Positions 1-17,212 of a stretch of 64,000 bases of DNA are shown piece by piece. Each line of letters opens with the position of its first letter. Position 1 is the stretch's first letter. Origin of the DNA: Ligustrum vulgare (lineage: Eukaryota; Streptophyta; Magnoliopsida; Lamiales; Oleaceae). The notes under the pieces were generated by a model, which was given only the letters and a program-made list of their open reading frames with translations, did not search any database and was not told the origin of the DNA. The position numbers and the translations under genes were made by a program. The stretch is from positions 29,978,639 to 30,042,638 of the forward strand of contig OY743184.1 of assembly GCA_963555705.1 (NCBI GenBank), given 5' to 3'.

Positions 1-1134
1 CGATGGAATCCCTGCACGTGGCGGCGATAGGTTTGGTGCTAGCTGAGGGAATTAGAGATGTTTTGGGTGGTTGGTTGTGCGAAATCGCGGCCAGACCGAG
101 CCTGTGAAGCTTGGTGCTTGTGGCTTTTCGGCGACGGAAACTCCGGTAGGTTGAGGTAGATTATGGGTATTGCTTTTAATTTGGTTTCGGGTTTGATTTT
201 TTTTTTGGGGGTTTGGCTCAGATTTGGGAGTTGGGCAGGGGGCGGTTTGTGGTGGTGATGTGGTCACGACAGTGGTTGGCCGTGTGTGGTTGGGGCGTTT
301 GGTTGTGGCGACTGGTGGTGGTGATCTTGTGTCTGGCTCGTGGTGTTGGATTGGTGGTGGTGTGGAGGTTCGACATTACGGTGATGTTACAGGGGGCGGT
401 TTGGAGTTGGGCAAGGTTGGAAGCGATAGGCTCGAGGCTGCTATGGTGGTGCCTTGGCTCGGCCTTGGTTCGGTGAAGGGGCTGCGGTGTGCGAATTTGG
501 TGTGGGTGCAGACGGTGGTTGGGTGGTTTGGCAACGGCTGTGGTGTTGCTCAGGGTTATAGGCTGACTGTGGCGGTGGTGGATTTGCAGACAACAACTTT
601 GCCGATGGTAGAAATTGAGAGAAATATACCTTTGCTGGAGGCGGTTGCATTGGTTTCGATAATGGAGTTGGGGGATTAAATTAATAGTTGATTTAGGTGT
701 TAAACATGGTAGCTTAGGTTAAAATCTTGGTTTATGGAAATCTTGTAAAATTTTTGGAAATGAGTATCGATTGCGTAAGGAAAAACTTGGGGAGGAAGAA
801 GCTGGTGAATAGGTTGGGTCAAAAGATGACTTATTGGGTTTTTAAATGGGCCCGAATGATTGGTAACAAAAAAAACATTTGGACTCGATAAGTTGGATTG
901 GACTAAAATATTTCAAATTGGGACTTAATAAAATTAATACTTGGACTTTTGAAAATAAACTGTGATATTAAAATATTTTTGATAAAATTGAAATTAGACT
1001 AAGTCTTTAAATAAGTTTAATTTCACTTAATTGGCTAGACGAATACTCCTTTAAATTAAATGGAAAAGCCGTAGCGACGCGCACTTAGAGTTCTAAATAT
1101 TTTATAAAGAATTTAAAAATTCCCGGTCGCTACA
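1..1134 (-). repeat. T1 3' LTR, cut by the window edge
   Basis: Long terminal repeat of T1, read on the minus strand. It begins at 1134 with TGTAGCGACC, directly after the end of pol, and runs off the left edge. Positions 391-886 match 16717-17212 in the opposite LTR almost base for base at a constant offset of 16326. Bases 1-390 have no counterpart there, so the other LTR has a deletion of about 385 bp. The stretch 200-680 is G/T-rich on the plus strand and gives long frames on both strands; I treat these as chance. Confidence 0.85.
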
Positions 1135-4100
1135 ACCCTACCACCTTAAAATAATTTCGTCCTCGAAATTTAAAACTTACTTGGTCTAAAATATCTGGAT
1201 ACTTGGCCAGAATATCTTCTTCTTTCTCCCATGTAGCCTCATCGCTACCATGTCTACCCCACTGGACTTTGACTAGAGAAATTTCTTTATTTCTTAGGAC
1301 ATGGACTTTTCTATCAATGATGCACGTGGGTGCCTCTTCATAATATAGATTCTTCTGAATTTGGATTGACTGAAAGTTCTCCACGTGACTGGGATCGTGG
1401 ACATACTTTCTCAACAGAGAGATGTGAAAAACATTGTGTATAGCCGAGAGTTCGGGTGGCAATGCTAGACGATAAGCCACATTACCTACTTTCTCCAATA
1501 TTTCAAAAGGTCCGATAAATCGAGGCCTTAATTTCCCTTTCTTGCCAAAACGAATAGTGCCCTTCATAGGAGAGATTTTCAAAAATACTTTCTCTCCAAT
1601 CTCGAATTCCAAGTCTTTCCTCCTCTGATCGGCATAGCTTTTCTGTCTGTCCTGAGCAGTTTTAATTCGTAATCTGATTTTCTCGATAGCCCCTACGGTC
1701 TTTTCAATTAATTCGGGACTCAATAACTTCCTCTCGCCAACCTCATCCCAATATACCGGCGATCGACATCTTCGCCCATACAGTGCTTCAAACGGTGCCA
1801 TACCAATGGTAGCCTGGAAACTGTTATTGTAAGCAAACTCCACCAATGGCAAGTGAGCTTCCCAATTGCCGCTTAGGTCCAACACACAGGCTCTAAGCAT
1901 ATCCTCTAAAGTCTGAATGGTGCGTTCAGACTGCCCGTCTGTCTGCGGGTGGTAAGCGGTACTAAAATTTAATTTAGTCCCCATAGCTGTGTGTAGGCTC
2001 TTCCAAAATCTCGAAGTGAATCTCGGACCCCTATCTGAAACGATAGACGATGGAACCCCGTGAAGTCGAACTATCTCCCTGATATAAATCTGGGCCAAGT
2101 GATCTATACTGAGAGTCCTCCGCACTGGAAGAAAATGGGCTGACTTTGTAAGTCGGTCTACAATAACCCAGATGGCGTCATGTCCACTCACTGTTCTTGG
2201 TAAAGCTGTTAGGAAATCCATGGAAATCTTCTCCCATTTCCATTCCGGAATATCTAAAGGATTTAGCAGTCCTGACGGTCTCTGATGTTCAGCCTTGACC
2301 TGCTGGCAGGTCATGCATCGTGAGACAAACTTGGCAATGCATCCTTTCATATTCCTCCACGAGAATGTGGTACGCAAATCTCGATACATCTTTGTTCCTC
2401 CTGGGTGAGCTGCATACGGAGCTGAGTGGGCTTCCCTCAATATTTCATTCCTGATCTGATCATCTTTCGGTACACACAGGCGACCCTTGAATAGTAGTGC
2501 CTTATCGCTTCCGATTTCAAAATCTGCTCTCTTGCCAGTTCCAACTTCGGCTTTGATCTTTCCCAAGAACTTATCACTTTCCTGAGCCATCACAATTCTG
2601 CTTCTCAAATCTGGCTTAACCGTCAAATTTTCCAATCTATTAGAACTTTGGATTTCTGGGTTTCTCACCTCAATTCTCAACTTCTGAAAATCCCGAATCA
2701 ATTGTTCTTGAACTGTTCCCAAAGCAGATAATTGACCCACGTCCTTCCTGCTTAGTGCATCTGCAACCTTATTAGCCTTACCAGGGTGGTAAAGAATAGT
2801 ACAATCATAATCCTTCACCAGTTCCAACCATCGACGCTGTCTCATGTTCAATTCCTTCTGAGTGAAGAAATATTTGAGACTCTTATGGTCGGTGTAAATC
2901 TCGCACTTACTCCCATATAGGTAATGTCGCCAAATCTTAAGGGCGTGCACAACAGCTGCCAGTTCTAGATCATGCGTCGGATAGTTTTTCTCGTATGGCT
3001 TCAACTGTCTCGAAGCATAGGCAATCACTTTACCTTTTTGCATCAACACACATCCCAAACTATGTTTCGAGGCATCACTGTATATCACAAAATCCTCGGA
3101 TCCATCCGGCACGATTAACACTGGTGTTGAAACCAGTCTATTCTTCAATTCCTGGAAGCTTCGTTCACACTGCTCTGTCCACTGGAATTTTACACCTTTT
3201 CGTGTCAACTGAGTCATGGGACCCGCTATCTTGGAGAAACCCTCTATAAATCGCCGGTAATATCCAGCTAGTCCCAAAAAGCTTCTTACATCACCGGCAT
3301 TCGCTGGCGTAGTCCAATTACTCACTGTCTCCACTTTTGACGGATCAACTTCGATGCCATTGATTGTAACAATATGACCCAGAAAGCCTATCTTCTCCAG
3401 CCAAAATTCACATTTCTTAAACTTGGCGAATAGCTTTTCTGCCCGTAGTGTCTCCAACACGATTCTCAGATGTTCTGTATGCTGTTGTGAATCTTTAGAA
3501 TAGACCAGAATATCGTCAATGAAGACAATGACGAACTTATCCAAGTACTGATGGAAAACCCGGTTCATCAAGTCCATAAATACTGCAGGCGCGTTCGTAA
3601 GACCGAATGGCATCACCGTGAACTCATAGTGTCCATATCGAGTCCTGAACGCTGTTTTTTGTATATCCGAAGACTTGATCTTCAATTGATGGTAACCGGA
3701 CCTTAAGTCCATCTTTGAAAATACCGCAGCTCCTTTCAGTTGATCGAATAAATCTTCGATTCTGGGCAAGGGGTACTTGTTCTTTATCGTCAACTTGTTC
3801 AATTCCCGATAGTCTATGCACATTCTCATACTGCCATCCTTCTTCTTCACAAATAGCACAGGTGCTCCCCACGGGGACACACTTGGCCTAATAAAGCCCT
3901 TCTCTAGTAATTCTTCCTGTTGGACCTTCAGTTCTTGCAATTCTTTCGGTGCCATACGATACAGGGCTTTCGAAACAGGGGCAGCTCCTGGCACCAGGTC
4001 AATAGCAAATTCCACTTGCCTATCAGGCGGAGTACTAGATAGGTCTTCTGGAAATACATTTTGAAAGTCACACACAACTGGCACTGACTCCAATTTGATT

Positions 4101-4569
4101 TCCTCGGCAGGCTTTCCTTGGAGGTTAACCAGATAACTCTGACAGTTTCCCTTGGCAATCAGCTTTTCGGCTTGCATAGTCGAGATAAGGCGAGGAAGTA
4201 CTTTAACCTTCGAACCGTAAAATCTGAAAACCTCATCCCCATTCTTCCGAAATACTACTTCTTTCTCATGGCACATGATCGCGGCACGGTTAGAGCTCAG
4301 CCAATCCATTCCTAGGATAATGTCGAAATCCTTCATTGGAATAATATTCAGGTCTGCTTCAAGTACTATTCCGTCTAAATCTATTCGTACAGACTTGACT
4401 ATCCTATTAGTATCGAGAATTTCTCCTGATGGTAAGCTTACTTCAAGCACACTACCATTCGTTTCACCCACTAAATTCAATCTAGTTAAGCATGAGTCGG
4501 AAATAAATGAATGTGTGGCACCCGAATCTGTTAGGACGTATACGGGAATACCAGAAACAGATAAAATTC
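1130..4569 (-). CDS. pol: T1 pol: protease, reverse transcriptase, RNase H, integrase, chromodomain
   Basis: The only intact long polyprotein in the window. Numbering is for the 1116 residues from position 4480; the frame opens further upstream to 4569 and includes the protease active site DSGATHSF (about 4500-4530). RT spans about 170-370 with FIDD at 320-323. RNase H spans about 462-580 (YSDAS, YTDHKS, ADALS). The integrase zinc finger has H685, H692, C722 and C725, and the catalytic triad is D755, D816, E852. A GPF module lies near 990 and a chromodomain at about 1048-1098 (VKVQW, EATWE). That order and the chromodomain fit Tekay/Del chromoviruses. The TAG stop at 1130-1132 lies inside the 3' LTR. 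The first coding base here is the predicted acceptor of the upstream intron. The intact frame means T1 may be young or under recent selection; expression is not shown. Confidence 0.93.
1135..1151 (-). other. T1 polypurine tract
   Basis: Purine-rich run on the minus strand (AAGGTGGTAGGG core) next to the LTR start at 1134. It would prime plus-strand DNA synthesis. It lies inside the last codons of pol, so coding and priming functions overlap. Confidence 0.75.
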
Positions 4570-4660: not shown

Positions 4661-4707
4661 CTGCAATCACGTCGGAGTTCTCAACGGCGTCCATGGCAAA
4701 TACCCTA
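4661..4707 (-). pseudogene. gag: T1 gag-protease linker, separated from gag by T2
   Basis: Reads RVFAMDAVENSDVIAG on the minus strand, a form typical of the linker between the zinc knuckle and protease of Tekay-type elements. It continues the gag frame that stops at 13531, on the far side of T2. The last five bases (4703-4707) are one copy of the target duplication. Confidence 0.8.
4703..4707. repeat. target site duplication CCCTA, left copy
   Basis: CCCTA directly precedes the TG of the T2 LTR. The same five bases follow the terminal CA at 13527-13531. Confidence 0.9.
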
Positions 4708-5224
4708 TGTGACGACCCGAATTCTCTTCCATTCGAGTGCCACTAAAAGTGACTCATATCATATTATCGAGACTTAAATAGTAATGTAAAATTATTCAAA
4801 AGAATAATTAGAATCCCATAATTTTATTTGTGAATAAAAATAGAACATAATTTTCTTACATAAAGTTCAACATAATTATCTCATCAATCTTAACCACTTT
4901 TGCCACTTCCATGTTGACCGCCTCGAACCTTCAATTATCTGAAAATGGTAAATATCGTGGAGTGAGATTTATAAAATCCCAGTAAGTATACCAAGCATAA
5001 TTTTCTTTTGAAAGCATATGGATCATTTTCATCATAACATAGGATAGGATCGAAATCCTCATAAACATAGAGAGACACAAGAATTTTACCGAACTTAGAT
5101 GGCAAGAATTCTTATGTGTAGCGCTACTAAACTCCGGTCCCCTTAGCATAATCATAAACATATCATATGGGACCAATAGCAATCTTGTGAGATTGATTTC
5201 ATAGCAATGATCCAAACATTTTCA

Positions 5225-5836
5225 TAAAAACATAAGATAAGTACTTGTCATAAAAACATACTTACTTTTCATAAAAACATAAGGTGTATTTACCTTTCAT
5301 AAAAACATACTTACTTTTCATAAAAACATAAGATATACTTACTTGTCATAAAAACATACTTACTTTTCATAAAAACATAAGGTGTATTTACCTTTCATAA
5401 AAACATACTTACTTTTCATAAAAACATAAGATATACTTACTTGTCATAAAAACATACTTACTTTTCATAAAAACATAAGGTGTATTTACCTTTCATAAAA
5501 ACATACTTACTTTTCATAAAAACATAAGATATACTTACTTGTCATAAAAACATACTTACTTTTCATAAAAACATAAGGTGTATTTACCTTTCATAAAAAC
5601 ATACTTACTTTTCATAAAAACATAAGATATACTTACTTGTCATAAAAACATACTTACTTTTCATAAAAACATAAGGTGTATTTACCTTTCATAAAAACAT
5701 ACTTACTTTTCATAAAAACATAAGATATACTTACTTGTCATAAAAACATACTTACTTTTCATAAAAACATAAGGTGTATTTACCTTTCATAAAAACATAC
5801 TTACTTTTCATAAAAACATAAGATATACTTACCTTT
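5225..5836. repeat. 98-bp minisatellite in T2 3' LTR, six units
   Basis: Units start at 5243, 5341, 5439, 5537, 5635 and 5733, exactly 98 bp apart. Each unit is four variants of a roughly 24-bp subunit with the core CATAAAAACATA. The other LTR has five units. Confidence 0.93.
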
Positions 5837-6059
5837 TAAAAGATTAAAATGAAGTGTAGTAGTAAATGGACCAAAACTTTCTTGACCACCTTGAATTTCT
5901 CTTACTTGTGGATTTTGTCAAGAGATTGGAAATAAGTGTATATGTGTAGAGTTGTGTGTAAAAGAGATGGGTTTAAATAGATGTATAAAGTTGGCATATT
6001 GTAAACATAATCATTCAATTCTATTAATTTTAACACATCCTTTTCTTAAAGTAAAGCAC

Positions 6060-6548
6060 CATTCATATACTTTTCCATATTTATACAAACAATATGCTCT
6101 TCATGATTATATATAATGGAGTCTTATCAATCATTCATATACTTTTCCATATTTATACAAATATTATGCTCTTCATGATTATATATAATGGAGTCTTATC
6201 AATCATTCATATACTTTTCCATATTTATACAAATATTATGCTCTTCATGATTATATATAATGGAGTATATAAATCATTCATATACTTTTCCATATTTATA
6301 CAAATATTATGCTCTTCATGATTATATATAATGGAGTATATAAATCATTCATATACTTTTCCATATTTATACAAATATTATGCTCTTCATGATTACATAT
6401 AATGGAGTCTTATCAATCATTCATATACTTTTCCATATTTATACAAATATTATGCTCTTCATGATTATATATAATGGAGTATATAAATCATTCATATACT
6501 TTTCCATATTTATACAAATATTATGCTCTTCATGATTACATATAATGG
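6060..6548. repeat. about 72-bp minisatellite in T2 3' LTR, seven units
   Basis: Repeats of a unit beginning TTCATATACTTTTCC with a TATATATAATGGAGT end. The last segment of each unit alternates between two versions. The other LTR has six units. The repeated frame starting MLFMIIYNG is a by-product of the repeat, not a gene. Confidence 0.9.
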
Positions 6549-6843
6549 AACCTCTCATGCTTGCATATATTTTCTTAATTTAAATAATAAAAGTAATTTT
6601 TGTACAAATAAATATTGGGATAACATTGAATTAAGTACTTAGACTTAATATACTTTAAATCAAGAGAATGGAGATATTTTTAGAAATTCGGAATTTAATT
6701 TAAAATCGAACGATCTCGATTATTTCTTGACTTGGCTATACGAATACGTCGTGGCGTTAACTTAATAAAAATGGGTGAAATAGTAGCGACACGATTTTCT
6801 ATTAAAATAATTATTAATCGCGTAAAAATTCTTGGTCGCTACA

Positions 6844-6860
6844 AACTTACCCCCTTAAAA
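6844..6860 (-). other. T2 polypurine tract
   Basis: TTTTAAGGGGGTAAGTT on the minus strand, directly against the LTR start at 6843. It is closely related to the T1 tract. Confidence 0.8.
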
Positions 6861-7085
6861 TAATTTCGTCCTCGAAATTAATCTTACTTGATCTTATGAT
6901 TTCTGAACACTTAATCAGAATCTCTTCTTCTTCTTCTTATGTAGCATCATCGCTACCATATTTAACCCAACCATATTTAACCCACTGGACTTTGACTAAA
7001 TGCATCAATTTGTTTTCTTAAGACATGGACTTTTCTATCAATAATAGACATATGTCTACTCATAAATTCTTCTGAATCAAAATGA
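6861..7085 (-). pseudogene. pol: T2 remnant of the 3' end of pol (chromodomain region)
   Basis: Plus-strand text from the polypurine tract to about 7085 follows T1 1140-1345, including the GATGAAGC-type stretch that encodes the chromodomain end. It is shortened and frame-broken. This is all that remains of pol in T2. It shows that T2 comes from a T1-like element by replacement of the centre. Confidence 0.75.
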
Positions 7086-7462
7086 AAATTCCCAATCGTA
7101 TGTGATATTTCATCATATCTTGTAGTATTCATGTAACTTGTCATTTATCATCGTATCATGTGACCTCAAATATTCGTATTAATATCTCTAAAATTTCAAT
7201 AAATCTTTACTAACATATCATACCATAATAATTTGTCATTTCTTCTTATCACCAAATATCCCAAAATAATTAAAACGATTACCTGAATATTCTCTATGTA
7301 ATATACCCAAACATGTTATTCACATATCAACATAATCATCAGTTTATCTTTCCAATATTTGTAACCCAAAATTTCTGCAAAATTCAATAAACAAATATCT
7401 CCCAAATAATTAAAATTCTTAACTCAAATATCATAACATTTCCCGTAAGGTATTCCTTTCAC
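7086..7462. other. AT-rich stretch without a recognisable gene
   Basis: No long frame or motif. The plus strand is rich in A, T and C and poor in G, like 9700-10300, so the two stretches may be the original flanks of the cargo. Confidence 0.5.
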
Positions 7463-7741
7463 TTGCACAAACTTATTAATCCTGATTCAATACAGTCCTT
7501 ATTTCACTTTCACGTATCCCCGTATTATTTCTATACCTTGATTATTATATCAAAATATCAGTACCCAAAATCCAAGAAAATATTCCATATCTCAAATCCC
7601 GTCATCATCAAATCTTCCTTTTATCAAGAAAGTAAACGGCGCATAAACTCTTGTTCCCTCTTTTCCATTATTCTATTCCGCGCTTTCTTGCTGGAATCAA
7701 TATCACGCGGATTCCCTCCAATCCTTAATGCTTTTAAATAG
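7463..7741 (+). other. unrecognised 92-codon frame overlapping the next ORF
   Basis: The first half is low-complexity and probably not coding. The last 34 codons (about 7634-7741) have more ordinary composition and end in a TAG that overlaps the first ATG of the next ORF by 14 bases. In Betaflexiviridae the coat protein often ends by overlapping the nucleic-acid-binding protein in this way, so this could be the tail of a truncated upstream viral gene. I do not recognise the sequence, and chance is a fair alternative. Confidence 0.25.
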
Positions 7742-8327
7742 TTCATGCTGGGAAGAGGTTAGATCCATCAAAAACATGGATATCATTCTTACAAACATTC
7801 GCAAGTATTATTCCAGTCTTCCAATGAATGATCTGAGGAAAATTTATCGAATAAGACTCGAAAGATTGAGGTTGCTGATGGCTCATGGTGTTTCAGAAGA
7901 TGTTCGCTGGTTGATCGAAGCAAAGGTTCGACTATCTGGTGAATTACCTATGACATTTCCAAAGCACATGCCTGGTTTAAGAAAAAGCACCTTCGCAAAG
8001 AAACGAAGAGCAAAAAGGCTGAATGGTTGCTACAAATGTGCTCGTTGGAACTGTGATACTCGTTGCAAAACAGTAGGATATTCTTCTACTAATCGGGATG
8101 ATAAAATCAAATTCATAAAGGGTGGACTGAGTAAGGAGTTTTTTGATGATATTCGACTGACTCTTGAGACGCACCCAAGTGGTTATGTGCAACGTGAACT
8201 TCTCTCCTTATACGCTCAGTTTAACGAGGACAAAAATCGTTATAGTCTCCAAAATATAATAGCAAAAGATCCTGTTTGCCAGTCTGTTTTACAAAATGAG
8301 GCTTCTGGCAGTTCAACAATGATATAA
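7728..8327 (+). CDS. virus-like cysteine-rich nucleic-acid-binding protein (199 aa), cargo of T2
   Basis: Complete frame, ATG to TAA. The Met at residue 17 (7776) has a better start context (A at -3, G at +4), so the protein may be 183 aa. The N-terminal half is helical and basic. Residues 85-97 (RKSTFAKKRRAKR) are an arginine/lysine patch followed by four cysteines at 101, 104, 109 and 113 (C-x2-C-x4-C-x3-C), then KIKFIKGG. A basic patch next to a short zinc-finger-like cysteine cluster is the layout of the small 3'-terminal nucleic-acid-binding proteins of vitiviruses, carlaviruses and allexiviruses, which bind RNA and act in silencing suppression or host regulation. The acidic C-terminal tail from about 145 is extra. 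I infer an endogenised viral gene; a host zinc-finger protein is less likely. Both the intact frame and the position 297 bp before LOG suggest that the two arrived together. Confidence 0.6.
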   Translation: MLLNSSCWEEVRSIKNMDIILTNIRKYYSSLPMNDLRKIYRIRLERLRLLMAHGVSEDVRWLIEAKVRLSGELPMTFPKHMPGLRKSTFAKKRRAKRLNGCYKCARWNCDTRCKTVGYSSTNRDDKIKFIKGGLSKEFFDDIRLTLETHPSGYVQRELLSLYAQFNEDKNRYSLQNIIAKDPVCQSVLQNEASGSSTMI

Positions 8328-8623
8328 GGTAAATCTCTTGATACACATTTAAAATATTTTGCTGTTTTCTTTCACGCGTTTTGGAAATAAAATATATTTT
8401 CCTTTCTCGAGTTTTGATAAAGCTGGAAATAAATCACCGAAAGGTGATATCTTTGGTAAAACAGTCAAAAGTTGGCCGATTTTGTCAAAAGTAAATCTTT
8501 ACTTTTTCATAATCAATCAAAAACAGTAAATTTTTTCGGCTTTAAATAGCCAAACATATTTCATAGTTCAGGCATCCCAAAATCACATCTTCTTCGTAAG
8601 TTTTCTCTTCTATACTATCAAAG
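8328..8623 (+). promoter_or_regulatory. intergenic leader with TATA-like box upstream of LOG
   Basis: AT-rich spacer without a frame. It contains TTTAAATAG (about 8541-8549) within GGCTTTAAATAGCC, about 80 bases before the LOG ATG, followed by a C/T-rich stretch like a plant 5' leader. If the segment came from an RNA virus it could instead be a subgenomic leader; sequence alone cannot decide. Confidence 0.4.
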
Positions 8624-9277
8624 ATGGAAGCACCAAAACTTCGACAGATCAAAACTATTTGTGTATTTTGTGGATCAAAAGTGGGGAAAGGCTTCAGTTA
8701 TCTAGAAGCGGCCGTAGATCTTGGAAAGAAACTGGGGGAAAAAGGTATCACTCTTGTGTATGGGGGTGGTAGCAGTGGTCTAATGGGTTGTGTTTCCCAA
8801 TCTGCTCTTGCAGAGAAATCAAAAGTAATCGGTGTCATACCTGTCCCTTTGGTAGATGTTGCAGGCAAAACACCCTCGCATGAAGTTCAAACCTTATCCA
8901 TCCATGAACGCATAACTTGTATGCTATATGGTTCTGATGCCTTTATAGCCCTGCCCGGAGGTTTTGGTACCTTAGAAGAAATCTTTAACATTACCTCGTG
9001 GGCTCAACTAGATCTCCATACTAAGCCTATTGGGCTTCTGAATGTTAACAATTTCTTTGATGGTTTGTTAACCTTTCTTGATTATGCTGTGGAACAGGGA
9101 TTCATCTCTCCATTTTCCAGAAGGCTTCTTATTTCTGCTCCTACTATTGATGAACTACTGGATAAGATGCAGTCATATATCTCAATACAAGATCCAGCAG
9201 GGGTTAAGATAGATTGGTCGCAAGGAAGGGGAATCAAGCGAAAATGGAGTCCGGTTAATGTAAACTTAACTTTATGA
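8624..9277 (+). CDS. LOG: LOG-type cytokinin riboside 5'-monophosphate phosphoribohydrolase, intronless (217 aa)
   Basis: LOG enzymes release active cytokinin base from its nucleoside monophosphate in one step. The frame is complete, and 217 aa is the usual length. Seen: N-terminal CVFCGS (13-18), GGGSSGLMG (47-55), HER (94-96) and PGGFGTLEE (111-119), the lysine-decarboxylase-like family signature with the catalytic Glu at 119; R96 is the probable catalytic Arg. The Lys that normally follows this Arg is Ile97, and the next residues (TCMLYG) also differ from typical plant LOGs, so activity is not certain. The ATG context (AAAG before, G after) is good. Plant LOG genes normally have several introns, so one uninterrupted frame implies passage through RNA. 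It lies antisense to T2, between the virus-like ORF and three hairpins. No frame damage is visible. Confidence 0.93.
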   Translation: MEAPKLRQIKTICVFCGSKVGKGFSYLEAAVDLGKKLGEKGITLVYGGGSSGLMGCVSQSALAEKSKVIGVIPVPLVDVAGKTPSHEVQTLSIHERITCMLYGSDAFIALPGGFGTLEEIFNITSWAQLDLHTKPIGLLNVNNFFDGLLTFLDYAVEQGFISPFSRRLLISAPTIDELLDKMQSYISIQDPAGVKIDWSQGRGIKRKWSPVNVNLTL

Positions 9278-9511
9278 ATCTTAGAATAGGTGGGGGTAGA
9301 GTACGGAGTATTCTTACTCTCGAGACACCCCTCTAATTTCCTAGGATTTTCCTTAATGTTTAAATCTTGTGTGTACCTCAAAGGTTCCAGGTGGTAGATT
9401 ACGGAGTATTCTTACTCTCGAAACACACCTCTTTGAAGGTTTCTTTATTTCCTCAAAAGGTCAGAGGTGGTAGGATACGGCTACTCCGGAAACACATCTC
9501 TCAATTTGAGG
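9277..9511 (+). ncRNA. three tandem hairpins after LOG
   Basis: Three related units, 9277-9348, 9376-9439 and 9451-9511. Each has an outer stem (AATCTTAG/CTAGGATT; CCTCAAAG/CTTTGAAGG; CCTCAAA/TTTGAGG), a middle stem of AGGTGG-type against ACACCTCT-type, and an inner hairpin. The inner loop is GAGTA-TTCT-TACTC in units 1 and 2 and CGG-CTACT-CCG in unit 3. Outer stem sequences differ while pairing is kept, as expected for a selected RNA structure. They could be a 3' UTR stability or translation element. Call is inference from pairing only. Confidence 0.6.
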
Positions 9512-10299
9512 AATTTCCCATGTTGCTTTCTTTTGATTTTGCGTGTTTCATGTATTTCTTTCCAATGTGACTCTTGTGTGTTCTCCTTACGAGAAAATAA
9601 TAAATATCTCTGTTATCATCTACTAAATCTCGTTTGTGATGTAAATGAATTTGCATGTCTAACCTCAATTCTCTTAGTGATTGCATACCATACTATGCTC
9701 TTAATTCCAAACGATAAAATTCTAAGCAGAGTTTCCTTTGAAATTTGGACTTATTCAAACCGTAAGCATACTTCATAACTCACAATAATAAATAATTCCA
9801 CATTTGATCACAACGATCTAAAAATTGACCACAATTTCATCAAACTTCAATATCATAAAAAAAATATTCCAGAAAATCAATTCATAATTCCTCAACATAG
9901 AAATTTCAAATCATAGTCGTCAATATCACAATATCACTTCCTTCAATACCTTAATTGGCTCAAAAGATTAGTCATACTTATATTTATAAGTCATAAATCA
10001 TATTCCCAAAATTTAATCACAAGACCAAAGTTCATAATAAATTTCTCTTCAATATAGAGGCATAATTCACTTACTCAACATAATATCCATTACTTAATTC
10101 CCAATAACCAAATCTTTAAATCTCTAACTTCATAATGCTTCTCATAAAAGTCTCATTAAAATCATATCACTTATAATCTTAACATCTCATAAAAATTCAT
10201 AAAATTGGCTCGCTATTTCTCATTAAATCTAAATGATAGATAATCTGAACATATTTCTAATCATTTCTGTTGACTTCTCATACTTAATGCCATGTCTAA
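9512..10299. other. AT-rich stretch without a recognisable gene
   Basis: About 790 bp with no convincing frame. The first 100 bases after the hairpins may still be transcript 3' end (AATAATAAA-like signal near 9597). The rest resembles 7086-7462 in composition. Confidence 0.45.
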
Positions 10300-10461
10300 A
10301 ATCAATTATGCAAAGTCCATTTAAGGTTTATCATTTCTAAACTCGAGGACAACAATTATTTTGAAAATCATTCTTAAGTCATATTATTCCCATTATGCTC
10401 AACACCCGTTCTCTTTCTTTCTTTTCTTTCTGAATTTTTTTTTTTTTTTTTTTTTTTTTTT
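10300..10461 (-). other. T2 leader segment homologous to T1 leader
   Basis: The stretch with ATGCAAAGTCC, TTCCCATTATGCTC and the following C/T-rich run matches T1 at about 15180-15330. The start codon of the T1 leader ORF (minus-strand ATGGC) is preserved at about 10290. This marks the 5' edge of the replaced region. It ends in a poly-T run of about 24. Confidence 0.65.
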
Positions 10462-10465
10462 CAGA

Positions 10466-10648
10466 ATTGAAACTTGAAGAGTGGTACCAATAATCATCCA
10501 CATTTTTTCCTTGCTTTTAAGCAAAGGTAGTGATAAAGGGATAAATTATTGAACCGAAAATTGAAACTTGAAGAGGAAGTACTAATAACCATCCACAGTT
10601 TTTCCCTTGTTTTTACACAAAGGTAGTGATAAAGGGATAAATTATTGT
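10466..10648. repeat. diverged tandem duplication of about 92 bp
   Basis: Two copies (about 10466-10550 and 10559-10648) share TTGAAACTTGAAGAG at the start and GGTAGTGATAAAGGGATAAA at the end, with several differences between. No function seen. Confidence 0.8.
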
Positions 10649-11340
10649 ACGAATTCATTATCAATTTTGTTTGTTTAATATATTATTCCATATATTTTGG
10701 GCAAAAGTTACAACCCAACTTAATTTCTAATTGAGTCAATCTTACTAAGCTTAATATGCACCAAAATTCATATAAATATCCTCTCTGTCTCATGATTCTA
10801 CATTGAAAAGAATAAAAAAATTGAGTCTTCTATCAATTTATATCATACTTGACATGTATATTATGTGTAACACATAAAGATTCATAACATATGAAGATTT
10901 CATACTTAACATGTCTTAATAAAATCGTAAATGACTTGCAAAGCATATAACATACCTGGTTCGAGGAGTCAATACGTGGAGAGTGACATAGTAGAGTGAT
11001 GAGTTAAAATATTTCATATAATCTTATTTTCCTTTAATCAACAATAATTTAATGTGGTTGTATCCAAATCAACATTTTCTTGAATCATAATTCCTAATTA
11101 ATCACAGTCTTCAAAACAAATCCAATATCGATATAGTAATTATCTCCCCATCAATAATTAATAACTTAACCCAAATAAAATTTATCGTCAAATCTTATTT
11201 TTCCTTTAGTCCCCGAACTTCTAGAAATTTATCAAAGACATCAATATAAACATCATATCACTAACTAATTATATTCCATAAAATTTTCAGGACATTACAA
11301 ACTCCCTTGCTTAAAATGAATTTTGTCCTTGAAATTCGCA
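10649..11340 (-). repeat. old LTR end and pol-end remnant of a third related element
   Basis: At 11299 an LTR-like TACA end is followed by AACTCCCTTGCTTAAAATG and a diverged pol end, the same arrangement as 1134 and 6843. The preceding AT-rich 650 bp would be its LTR. It carries more mutations than T1 or T2. No target duplication was found. Confidence 0.4.
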
Positions 11341-11540
11341 CATCAAATTTCATCATGCTTTTCAAAATCATAACCATACTTGACATGTGAAAATTCAATT
11401 TTTTTTTTATAATGAATAGTGATTTCGTTCACTGTTCATCATGAATAGCACGTCGTTTTACTGTTCACGTGAATAGTGATTTTTTTTTTTTTTTTAAAGA
11501 AATAAAATTTCAAAAATCTACAGAATCGTTTTTAAAACTC

Positions 11541-11555
11541 TTTGCTCTGATACCA
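11541..11555 (-). other. T2 primer binding site, tRNA-iMet type
   Basis: Minus strand reads TGGTATCAGAGCAAA two bases inside the 5' LTR. The first 12 bases are the standard plant initiator tRNA-Met primer site. Confidence 0.92.
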
Positions 11556-11557
11556 AC

Positions 11558-13526
11558 TGTGACGACCCGAATTCTCTTCCATTCGAGTGCCACTAAAAGT
11601 GACTCATATCATATTATCGAGACTTAAATAGTAATGTAAAATTATTCAAAAGAATAATTAGAATCCCATAATTTTATTTGTGAATAAAAATAGATCATAA
11701 TTTTCTTACATAAAGTTCAACATAATTATCTCATCAATCTTAACCACTTTTGCCACTTCCATGTTGACCGCCTCGAACCTTCAATTATCTGAAAAGGGTA
11801 AATATCGTGGAGTGAGATTTATAAAATCCCAGTAAGTATACCAAGCATAATTTTCTTTTGAAAGCATATGGATCATTTTCATCATAACATAGGATAGGAT
11901 CGAAATCCTCATAAACATAGAGAGACACAAGAATTTTACCGAACTTATCTGGCAAGAATTCTTATGTGTAGCGCTACTAAACTCCGGTCCCCTTAGCATA
12001 ATCATAAACATATCATATGGGACCAATAGCAATCTTGTGAGATTGATTTCATAGCAATGATCCAAACATTTTCATAAAAACATAAGATATACTTACTTGT
12101 CATAAAAACATACTTACTTTTCATAAAAACATAAGGTGTATTTACCTTTCATAAAAACATACTTACTTTTCATAAAAACATAAGATATACTTACTTGTCA
12201 TAAAAACATACTTACTTTTCATAAAAACATAAGGTGTATTTACCTTTCATAAAAACATACTTACTTTTCATAAAAACATAAGATATACTTACTTGTCATA
12301 AAAACATACTTACTTTTCATAAAAACATAAGGTGTATTTACCTTTCATAAAAACATACTTACTTTTCATAAAAGCATAAGATATACTTACTTGTCATAAA
12401 AACATACTTACTTTTCATAAAAACATAAGGTGTATTTACCTTTCATAAAAACATACTTACTTTTCATAAAAACATAAGATATACTTACTTGTCATAAAAA
12501 CATACTTACTTTTCATAAAAACATAAGGTGTATTTACCTTTCATAAAAACATACTTACTTTTCATAAAAACATAAGATATACTTACCTTTTAAAAGATTA
12601 AAATGAAGTGTAGTAGTAAATGGACCAAAACTTTCTTGACCACCTTGAATTTCTCTTACTTGTGGATTTTGTCAAGAGATTGGAAATAAGTGTATATGTG
12701 TAGAGTTGTGTGTAAAAGAGATGGGTTTAAATAGATGTATAAAGTTGGCATATTGTAAACATAATCATTCAATTCTATTAATTTTAACACATCCTTTTCT
12801 TGAAGTAAAGCACCATTCATATACTTTTCCATATTTATACAAATAATATGCTCTTCATGATTATATATAATGGAGTCTTATCAATCATTCATATACTTTT
12901 CCATATTTATACAAATATTATGCTCTTCATGATTATATATAATGGAGTCTTATCAATCATTCATATACTTTTCCATATTTATACAAATATTATGCTCTTC
13001 ATGATTATATATAATGGAGTATATAAATCATTCATATACTTTTCCATATTTATACAAATATTATGCTCTTCATGATTACATATAATGGAGTCTTATCAAT
13101 CATTCATATACTTTTCCATATTTATACAAATATTATGCTCTTCATGATTATATATAATGGAGTATATAAATCATTCATATACTTTTCCATATTTATACAA
13201 ATATTATGCTCTTCATGATTACATATAATGGAACCTCTCATGCTTGCATATATTTTCTTAATTTAAATAATAAAAGTAATTTTTGTACAAATAAATATTG
13301 GGATAACATTGAATTAAGTACTTAGACTTAATATACTTTAAATCAAGAGAATGGAGATATTTTTAGAAATTCGGAATTTAATTTAAAATCGAACGATCTC
13401 GATTATTTCTTGACTTGGCTATACGAATACGTCGTGGCGTTAACTTAATAAAAATGGGTGAAATAGTAGCGACACGATTTTCTATTAAAATAATTATTAA
13501 TCGCGTAAAAATTCTTGGTCGCTACA
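11558..13526 (-). repeat. T2 5' LTR (1969 bp)
   Basis: Partner of 4708-6843, from TGTGACG at 11558 to CTACA at 13526. It contains five 98-bp units (12095-12585) and six of the roughly 72-bp units (12812-13225). The differences I noticed outside the repeats are single bases, for example near 11692 and 11797. Confidence 0.92.
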
Positions 13527-13531
13527 CCCTA
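13527..13531. repeat. target site duplication CCCTA, right copy
   Basis: Matches 4703-4707 exactly and directly follows the terminal CA of T2. Confidence 0.9.
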
Positions 13532-15598: not shown

Positions 15599-17212
15599 TG
15601 TAACGCCCCGAGTTCCGAGAAACGCGGGAACGTCACTTTTTTAAATTCTGGAATAAATTTTATTGCGGAAAATGACTAAATATTAAATATCACATTTAAT
15701 AAGTCAAAGTTTAGCGATAATTCCAAATTAAATAGAATGATTCTTACAAACTTATTAAAAATAAGAATTCTTGATAAAATGAAATTGTTTATTTCGAAAT
15801 CCACGACTTTCAAAAATAATATCCAAATTATATTCTTCGCCATTGCCCATCACTCGCCTCCGTCACCAAAATCTGCAAATTTGTTAAAACAACGGGTTGA
15901 GCATTTCAAAATGAAATACTCAGTAGACTCAACTCCAATAATTAATCTACAAGATAATTGGACAAGTAATCATGCAAATAATGTAGTGATATTCTTTTCT
16001 TATTCATAGGCATCACATAGTGAACACAAATGAAACATTCTTTTCTTAAATCTTGCTAGCAGATAAGTTATGACGTGCATAACATAAATTCTCAAATTTA
16101 TCTCATACGAGATATTCTTTTCTTTTCTCATGCAATAAAGCATATAAAATCACACAAATCCACATAATCACATGCAATTATAATATAAATCAATTAGTGG
16201 GGGCGAGTCTACCTTTAACGTTACAAGTTCTCAAAAATTGGAGCGGGAAGTACGTCAATCTCTTAATTCTCCAAATGATTCGTCTAGCCAAGAAAAATTA
16301 CTTAAATTAGTATTTTTGAAACTTGAATTTAAAGTGATTAAAATAAATAAGATATAAGGATCTAATGGAATTTTAAGAGAATTGAATTTAAAATTTAGGG
16401 ACTGAGGTAGACTTTTACAAAAATAAGGGCTGATTGAAATAGTTAAGAACTGCAGGGACAAAATTGTTACATACTGAAACTAAACAGAATAATTTTGAAT
16501 TACAAGGGCTGAAATAGCTGTTTTCAAAATTGGGGGGGGGGGGCTGAAACGGATATTTGAAAACTTAATTTTTATAAAACATCATCCCTCATTCCTCCCT
16601 CTCTCTATTTCGTTACACAGAGACTTAGAGAGAGAGAGAGACCGAGGCGACGACGGAGAGGGCTAAGCCCCTCTCTTCCGTTTCACGCAGCCGTCGACGA
16701 CGGCGATGGAAGCGATAGGGGGCGGTTTGGAGTTGGGCAAGGTTGGAAGCGATAGGCTCGAGGCTGCTATGTTGGTGCCTTGGCTCGGCCTTGGTTCGGT
16801 GAAGGGGCTGCGGTGTGCGAATTTGGTGTGGGTGCAGACGGTGGTTGGGTGGTTTGGCAACGGCTGTGGTGTTGCTCAGGGTTCTAGGCTGACTGTGGCG
16901 GTGGTGGATTTGCAGATAACAACTTTGCCGATGGTAGAAATTGAGAGAAATATACCTTTGCTGGAGGCGGTTGCATAGGTTTCGATAATGGAGTTGGGGG
17001 ATTAAATTAATAGATGATTTAGGTGTTAAACATGGTAGCTTAGGTTAAAATCTTGGTTTATGGAAATCTTGTAAAAATTTTGGAAACGAGTATCGATTGC
17101 GTAGGGAAAAACTTGGGGAGGAAGAAGCTGGTGAATAGGTTGGGTCAAAAGATGACTTATTGGGTTTTTAAATGGGCCCGAATGATTGGTAACAAAAAAA
17201 ACATTTGGACTC
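15599..17212 (-). repeat. T1 5' LTR, truncated at its outer end
   Basis: Begins TGTAACGCCCCGAG at the primer site. Positions 16717-17212 match 391-886, after which the LTR stops abruptly; the last 248 bp found in the other LTR (887-1134) are missing. Contains a GA microsatellite near 16627 and a 12-G run at 16532-16543. The frame 16706-16978 is the same chance frame as in the other LTR. Confidence 0.85.

Follow-up and report, generated by a model that had tools for sequence, protein, structure and literature searches.

A young LTR retrotransposon of Ligustrum vulgare carries antisense ORFs of NABP and LOG type

Introduction

How does a gene for a cytokinin-activating enzyme come to lie beside a virus-type open reading frame (ORF) inside a retrotransposon? 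The question is raised by a stretch of 64,000 nucleotides from Ligustrum vulgare (assembly GCA_963555705.1, contig OY743184.1, positions 29,978,639 to 30,042,638 of the forward strand), the whole of which is called the window here. It contains T2, a long terminal repeat (LTR) retrotransposon whose interior holds one ORF of the nucleic-acid-binding protein (NABP) type of flexiviruses and one of the LOG type. LOG yields active cytokinin, and hormone genes are not usually thought of as cargo of mobile elements. The initial annotation of the locus proposed that a viral or virus-host chimeric RNA had recently been captured by T2. On balance, we lean toward another reading, in which T2 is a non-autonomous element of chromovirus type with an antisense accessory module of NABP and LOG, their roles being deduced from the sequence.

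Structure of T2

T2 is a complete young LTR retrotransposon, and in this the initial annotation is confirmed, since the CCCTA duplications and near-identical LTRs that it reported are present at 4703–4707 and 13527–13531 and as a pair with 7 differences in 1969 aligned sites. The parts of the element and the two ORFs are as follows.

4703–4707, no strand: left target-site duplication CCCTA, adjoining T2 (4708–13526)
4708–6843, minus: 3′ LTR of T2, the left one in the window, bounded by TG...CA and containing tandem repeats, 2136 bp
6842–7083, minus: decayed remnant of the pol C-terminus beside the polypurine tract (PPT); tblastn with T1 pol gives 40% and 83% amino acid identity, with internal stops
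6844–6860, minus: PPT of T2, its complement lying beside the left LTR
7776–8327, plus: NABP or cysteine-rich protein ORF (ORF1), 183 aa, antisense to T2, with a conserved start at 7776
8624–9277, plus: LOG (cytokinin riboside 5′-monophosphate phosphoribohydrolase-like) ORF (ORF2), 217 aa, uninterrupted, antisense to T2
10270–11557, minus: leader of T2, with the primer-binding site (PBS) TGGTATCAGAGC on the minus strand and its complement at 11544–11555
11558–13526, minus: 5′ LTR of T2, the right one in the window, 1969 bp
13527–13531, no strand: right target-site duplication CCCTA

Both LTRs have the termini TGTGACG...GCTACA. The difference in their lengths (2136 versus 1969 bp) probably results from the tandem repeats that both contain. 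Such repeats lie at 5219–5836 and 6060–6549, with offsets near 98 and 72 bp in the self-comparison. The complement of the PBS, GCTCTGATACCA, adjoins the right LTR, and TGGTATCAGAGC is presumably a PBS of the tRNA-iMet type. Because the PBS, the PPT and the decayed pol end all lie on the minus strand, this is the sense strand of T2, and the plus-strand NABP and LOG ORFs are therefore antisense to the element.

T2 sits within an older element, T1, the pol of which (minus strand, 1130–4480) has protease, reverse transcriptase, RNase H and integrase domains, together with a Chromo match (E 0.0002) that is under the curated cut-off. The minus strand of T2 at 7083–6842 aligns to the tail of this pol. 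Likeness between T2 and the surrounding element, which was taken as the T1 of the initial annotation, is 68–72% at the pol end with the LTR edge and in the leader, in agreement with the T1-like LTR ends, leader and pol end described there. A chromodomain after the integrase and a PBS of the tRNA-iMet type are, as we take it, the traits that define chromoviruses. Somewhat more probably than otherwise, T2 is a non-autonomous Ty3/gypsy element of the chromovirus type in which gag-pol has been replaced by two antisense genes. No further ORF of at least 180 aa besides the pair was found in T2, and a scan of T2 with Rfam gave nothing above the gathering score.

The NABP and LOG ORFs

The protein of ORF1 matches Viral_NABP with an E value of 1.1e-6, over the cut-off of the model, and falls just under the cut-off of Carla_C4. 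In an alignment of 55 NABP relatives, Viral_NABP was found in 53 and Carla_C4 in 52 (E 0.01 or better). By its domain, ORF1 is thus classed as a flexivirus-type NABP. The open, cysteine-rich frame of virus type that the initial annotation placed at 7728–8327 is therefore real, with its start moved from 7728 to the conserved position 7776. Like the cysteine-rich proteins and NABPs of flexiviruses, it has the Viral_NABP/Carla_C4 domain and a cysteine cluster after a basic stretch; unlike them, it sits in LTR elements beside a LOG gene. The predicted structure is of low confidence (pLDDT 65.8) and has 26 matches in BFVD. Among the first 19 of these, 15 are named as plant-virus silencing suppressors or nucleic-acid- or RNA-binding proteins, and the other four comprise three entries without a name and a 15-kDa protein from cherry mottle leaf virus. 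Scans of IMG/VR with the window NABP and with query A1 gave no relative. According to excerpts of PMC12172455, cysteine-rich proteins of viruses suppress silencing, and one of them, CVB p12, works as a transcription factor and causes hyperplasia.

ORF2 matches Lysine_decarbox/LOG with an E value of 6.4e-34, and the intact LOG ORF proposed earlier is upheld. Its translation contains PGGFGTLEE, which has the form PGGxGTxxE that marks membership of the family. The best solved relative is At2g37210, with 49% identity over 195 aa. ORF2 is thus a LOG by domain and motif, with a predicted phosphoribohydrolase activity. It shares with plant LONELY GUY enzymes this identity and the PGGxGT motif, whereas it differs from them in being an uninterrupted frame inside an element and in its tail, which is basic and LxLxL-like.

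9236–9274, plus: C-terminal basic and VNVNLTL tail of LOG, a weaker form of the basic and LxLxL tail of many LOG matches

LxLxL occurs within the last 16 aa in 92 of the 120 best LOG matches (P0121–P0240), in many of them after a basic cluster. The strict LxLxL (EAR motif) is absent from the tail of the window LOG, where the sequence is VNVNLTL. The EAR motif recruits TOPLESS, and the basic and LxLxL tails of the LOG matches are a possible nuclear co-repressor motif.

A TATA-like motif, which is a putative promoter, stands ahead of each ORF.

7733–7741, plus: TTTAAATAG ahead of NABP, conserved in 17 of the 18 leader-sampled copies whose ORF start was located
8541–8549, plus: TTTAAATAG ahead of LOG, kept in 18 of 18 such copies

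These are the only two occurrences of TTTAAATAG in the internal region of T2, where 0.11 is expected from composition.

Spread of T2 and a candidate helper

T2 is young and has spread through the host genome with the gene pair as cargo, at thousands of sites. In the host genome, 2,162 exact PBS-LTR junctions, 4,371 sites of a NABP 39-mer and 5,886 sites of a LOG 39-mer (the latter two with up to 3 mismatches) were counted, as sites that include fragments and tandem arrays; the reversed controls gave 0 in all three cases. Co-location was read on C1, from 90 of 100 listed PBS places, 68 of 100 NABP places and 100 of 100 LOG places. At the first 90 listed PBS junctions, the exact LOG word occurs at 69, the NABP word at 56, both at 49 and neither at 14, counted at the expected place and strand. 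A full-length match to the NABP frame was found at one LOG site without the exact NABP word.

Twenty full stretches around T2 copies were fetched from a list selected by LOG, and the complement of the PBS lies downstream of LOG in 18 of them. The 5-bp duplications match in 9/9 copies of which both edges were found by exact motif, and all nine differ. LTR divergence is 0–1.8% in ten T2 copies, that of the window included. The claim that T2 disseminates LOG and a virus-like ORF as cargo is thereby borne out, and so is the expectation that further T2 copies with this cargo occur in the host, the cassette being present in 19 of 20 copies sampled by their leader as well. A number of T2 copies on C1–C4 are paired 6.5–7.1 kb apart, as expected for tandem arrays that share an LTR.

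Of the 14 junctions on C1 without LOG and NABP words, two were probed. At the first lies a T2 copy with partial deletions of NABP and LOG. At the second (L062), the 1 kb read contains no T2 cassette; a gag-protease frame is open there on the sense strand of T2, together with the exact PBS-LTR junction of T2. The LTR piece of this relative (L063) is 93% identical to T2 in its initial 95 bp, 77% in a stretch after these and 96% across 478 bp. This relative is the leading candidate for a helper of T2.

Origin of the gene pair

The sole match to NABP in GTDB is a contig (L001, positions 1–3330 of DAIEQH010000041.1) filed under a metagenome-assembled genome of Candidatus Nomurabacteria. It is probably contaminating plant Ty3/gypsy DNA. 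An integrase ORF is followed on it by NABP in the sense orientation, and a PPT-like motif is present; by its look we take the contig to be Athila-like. NABP lies directly downstream of pol in sense in L001, but not in T2. Between the window NABP and that of L001, nonsynonymous divergence (dN) is 0.30 and synonymous divergence (dS) 1.30, and by this comparison NABP is constrained over longer times. Host Athila-like elements as the source of the cassette are unsupported: NABP and LOG were absent within 1.5 kb downstream of the host relatives of L001 pol in 10/10 fetched loci (L030–L039; of 91 scored). Frames in these host relatives stay open for as many as 1784 aa.

In Orobanche, four gene models combine NABP with LOG domains. 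The lists of NABP and LOG matches, compared without chromosome-scale rows, have five contig sizes of at least 1300 nt in common versus 0.61 expected; without the size limit there are nine versus 2.6 expected, the shortest being too short for both full ORFs. This is indirect evidence that NABP and LOG stand on the same contigs. A LOG tree of 124 tips was built from the best window-LOG matches (190–245 aa) and partial sequences from three of the four Orobanche models, with two Arabidopsis LOGs and two bacterial sequences added. The window LOG groups with one other protein (1.0) and then with Orobanche, Diospyros and other matches (1.0), and the two Arabidopsis LOGs fall outside the 120-tip clade that holds it (0.926); the matches were picked for their similarity to the window and may include host genes, in a share that is not readable from the tree. 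We read these data as suggesting that the NABP-LOG pair is older than T2 and was housed in other elements before it. Its antisense placement may have come about by nested insertion and then deletion, which is a guess.

In a search of the host genome with At2g37210, ordinary host LOG genes were not discernible, being swamped by other copies, and host sequences therefore give no case against capture from a host gene. The best 150 matches of that search (50–52% identity) are mostly uninterrupted copies, at places outside the LOG-selected T2 list.

Functional module or passive cargo

In the reading toward which we lean, an older travelling gene pair would have been re-housed in the non-autonomous T2, antisense and in place of gag-pol, and T2 would be moved in trans by elements of the kind of its gag-protease-coding relative. 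NABP and LOG would each be transcribed from its own TATA-like promoter. Like the cysteine-rich proteins of flexiviruses, NABP may bind nucleic acid in the nucleus and act there as a transcription factor or a suppressor of silencing. LOG would release active cytokinin and so favor dividing cells, in which new T2 copies can be inherited.

Selection on the pair was read in 20 of the 40 best-scored leader matches (1,588 candidates), picked blind to the ORFs; they represent near relatives of the window copy and not the whole T2 family. The NABP frame is open in 16 of these copies and the LOG frame in 15. In L043 the cassette is absent from the stretch fetched. The ratio of nonsynonymous to synonymous diversity (piN/piS) was taken after copies with indels or below 95% identity had been dropped, which kept 18 of 20 for NABP and 17 of 20 for LOG. 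Without the window, piN/piS of LOG is 0.23. Shared variants of LOG are 4 synonymous to 0 nonsynonymous versus 4:14 among singletons (Fisher p 0.0096). A second set, 28 loci read by LOG score, comprises 24 distinct copies with that of the window; its LOG counts are biased and were not used for selection on LOG. Full-length NABP is present in 18 of its 23 copies other than the window's.

Several points weigh against the functional reading. The functions of NABP and LOG are themselves deductions from sequence. Fold support for NABP is marginal, the best BFVD match having an E value of 0.015 and none being below 0.001. The candidate helper was seen at one of the two loci probed, and mobilization of T2 in trans is a supposition added to it. 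Antisense transcripts could feed silencing of T2 by double-stranded RNA. NABP shows little constraint within T2, with a piN/piS of 0.84 in the leader sample without the window, and its variants of intermediate frequency in the 18 LOG-selected copies are 5 nonsynonymous to 0 synonymous, which lowers the odds of a functional reading slightly. The copies are related, so that variant counts are not independent, and the numbers are small (18 and 17).

The serious rival is that the pair is passive cargo, its frames open just from the youth of the copies and its proteins now useless to a non-autonomous element that is well mobilized. We think it the less probable choice on balance, although much is in keeping with it: the low LTR divergence of the ten copies, the NABP diversity and intermediate-frequency counts given above, singletons that look neutral (6 synonymous to 18 nonsynonymous in NABP beside the 4:14 of LOG, with two stops in each), and broken frames or an internal deletion in several T2 copies. 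Several missense differences from the sister copies read are private to the window copy, and the two ORFs that were called undamaged replacements of gag-pol on the plus strand deserve that word for their open frames alone. However, passive carriage is at odds with the purely synonymous shared variants of LOG, with the presence of the pair together in other plants and with the conservation of NABP over long times.

Beyond the accessory module in T2, a wider reading, which we hold to be rather unlikely, would see an old two-gene module in the retrotransposons of several eudicots that blunts silencing and pushes division, with element LOGs that far outnumber the host LOG family. The module would consist of a virus-type silencing suppressor or transcription factor and a cytokinin-activating enzyme, the relatives of which have a tail of nuclear co-repressor type.

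Comparison with known systems

Antisense accessory ORFs have been described in Ty3/gypsy elements, as excerpts of PMC7264820 and PMC11963269 state. The cases of Grande (gene23) and Retand (TRP28) resemble T2 in having antisense ORFs in Ty3/gypsy elements, gene23 with its own promoter, and in that some families are non-autonomous. They differ from it in that the protein families are others, whereas T2 is chromovirus-like and has two antisense ORFs and no gag-pol. This layout, with some of the proteins nuclear and one having its own promoter in those excerpts, and the hint of nuclear roles in the basic and LxLxL tails of many LOG matches would suit a direct role of the proteins in the retrotransposition cycle, as has been proposed for Grande gene23 and the Retand antisense ORFs, by RNA chaperoning or nuclear import through NABP or by control of LTR transcription, with cytokinin having no part. 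The LOG motif is retained, however, and LOG is more constrained than NABP within T2, and such a direct role appears improbable. That T2 recently captured a single RNA, viral or a virus-host chimera, is most improbable and the proposal finds no support, for although ORF1 is of the flexivirus NABP or cysteine-rich type and ORF2 is a single uninterrupted frame, the cargo is antisense, the NABP homolog is the 3′ extra ORF of the presumably Athila-like Ty3/gypsy element L001, the pair is already in Orobanche, with which the LOG tree groups the window, T2 has no further ORF of at least 180 aa, and the two IMG/VR scans gave no NABP relative.

Athila-like elements with a LOGL4-like ORF were reportedly described by Steinbauerova in 2011. 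Excerpts of PMC9289625 credit Steinbauerova 2011 with a LOG/YgdH domain in LTR elements of Citrus and Populus, which are thus like T2 in having a LOG-type domain as an extra ORF. By comparison with these elements as the excerpts describe them, the NABP partner, the antisense position in a gutted element of probable chromovirus type and the thousands of copies belong to T2. LOG in LTR elements is already known (PMC9289625), and the idea of a new kind of system is not wholly new. What stands of it is the NABP-LOG pair, of which no report in an LTR element was recognized among the open-access papers listed.

In T2, a hormone-activating enzyme and a nucleic-acid-binding protein of virus type travel together at thousands of sites within a single genome. 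Should the pair be expressed, it would allow a test of whether a retrotransposon acts jointly on silencing and growth of its host. It is also a warning that annotations of plant LOG families may include genes of elements.

Other features of the window

9292–9510, no strand: three imperfect hairpin repeats

The initial annotation had also pointed to three hairpins. Three repeats are indeed there, but they are imperfect, and on the plus strand the entire array is no more stably folded than shuffled sequence (z 0.15), with a z of -1.22 on the minus strand; a strong RNA structure was rejected on this comparison. Folding of the single units on the plus strand gives z values of -1.06, -1.78 and -3.07. 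In several T2 copies, about 72 or 100 alignment columns are gapped in this region. At 17000–64000, the window holds Ty3/gypsy pol fragments and many near-identical repeats, which are apparently nested and rearranged.

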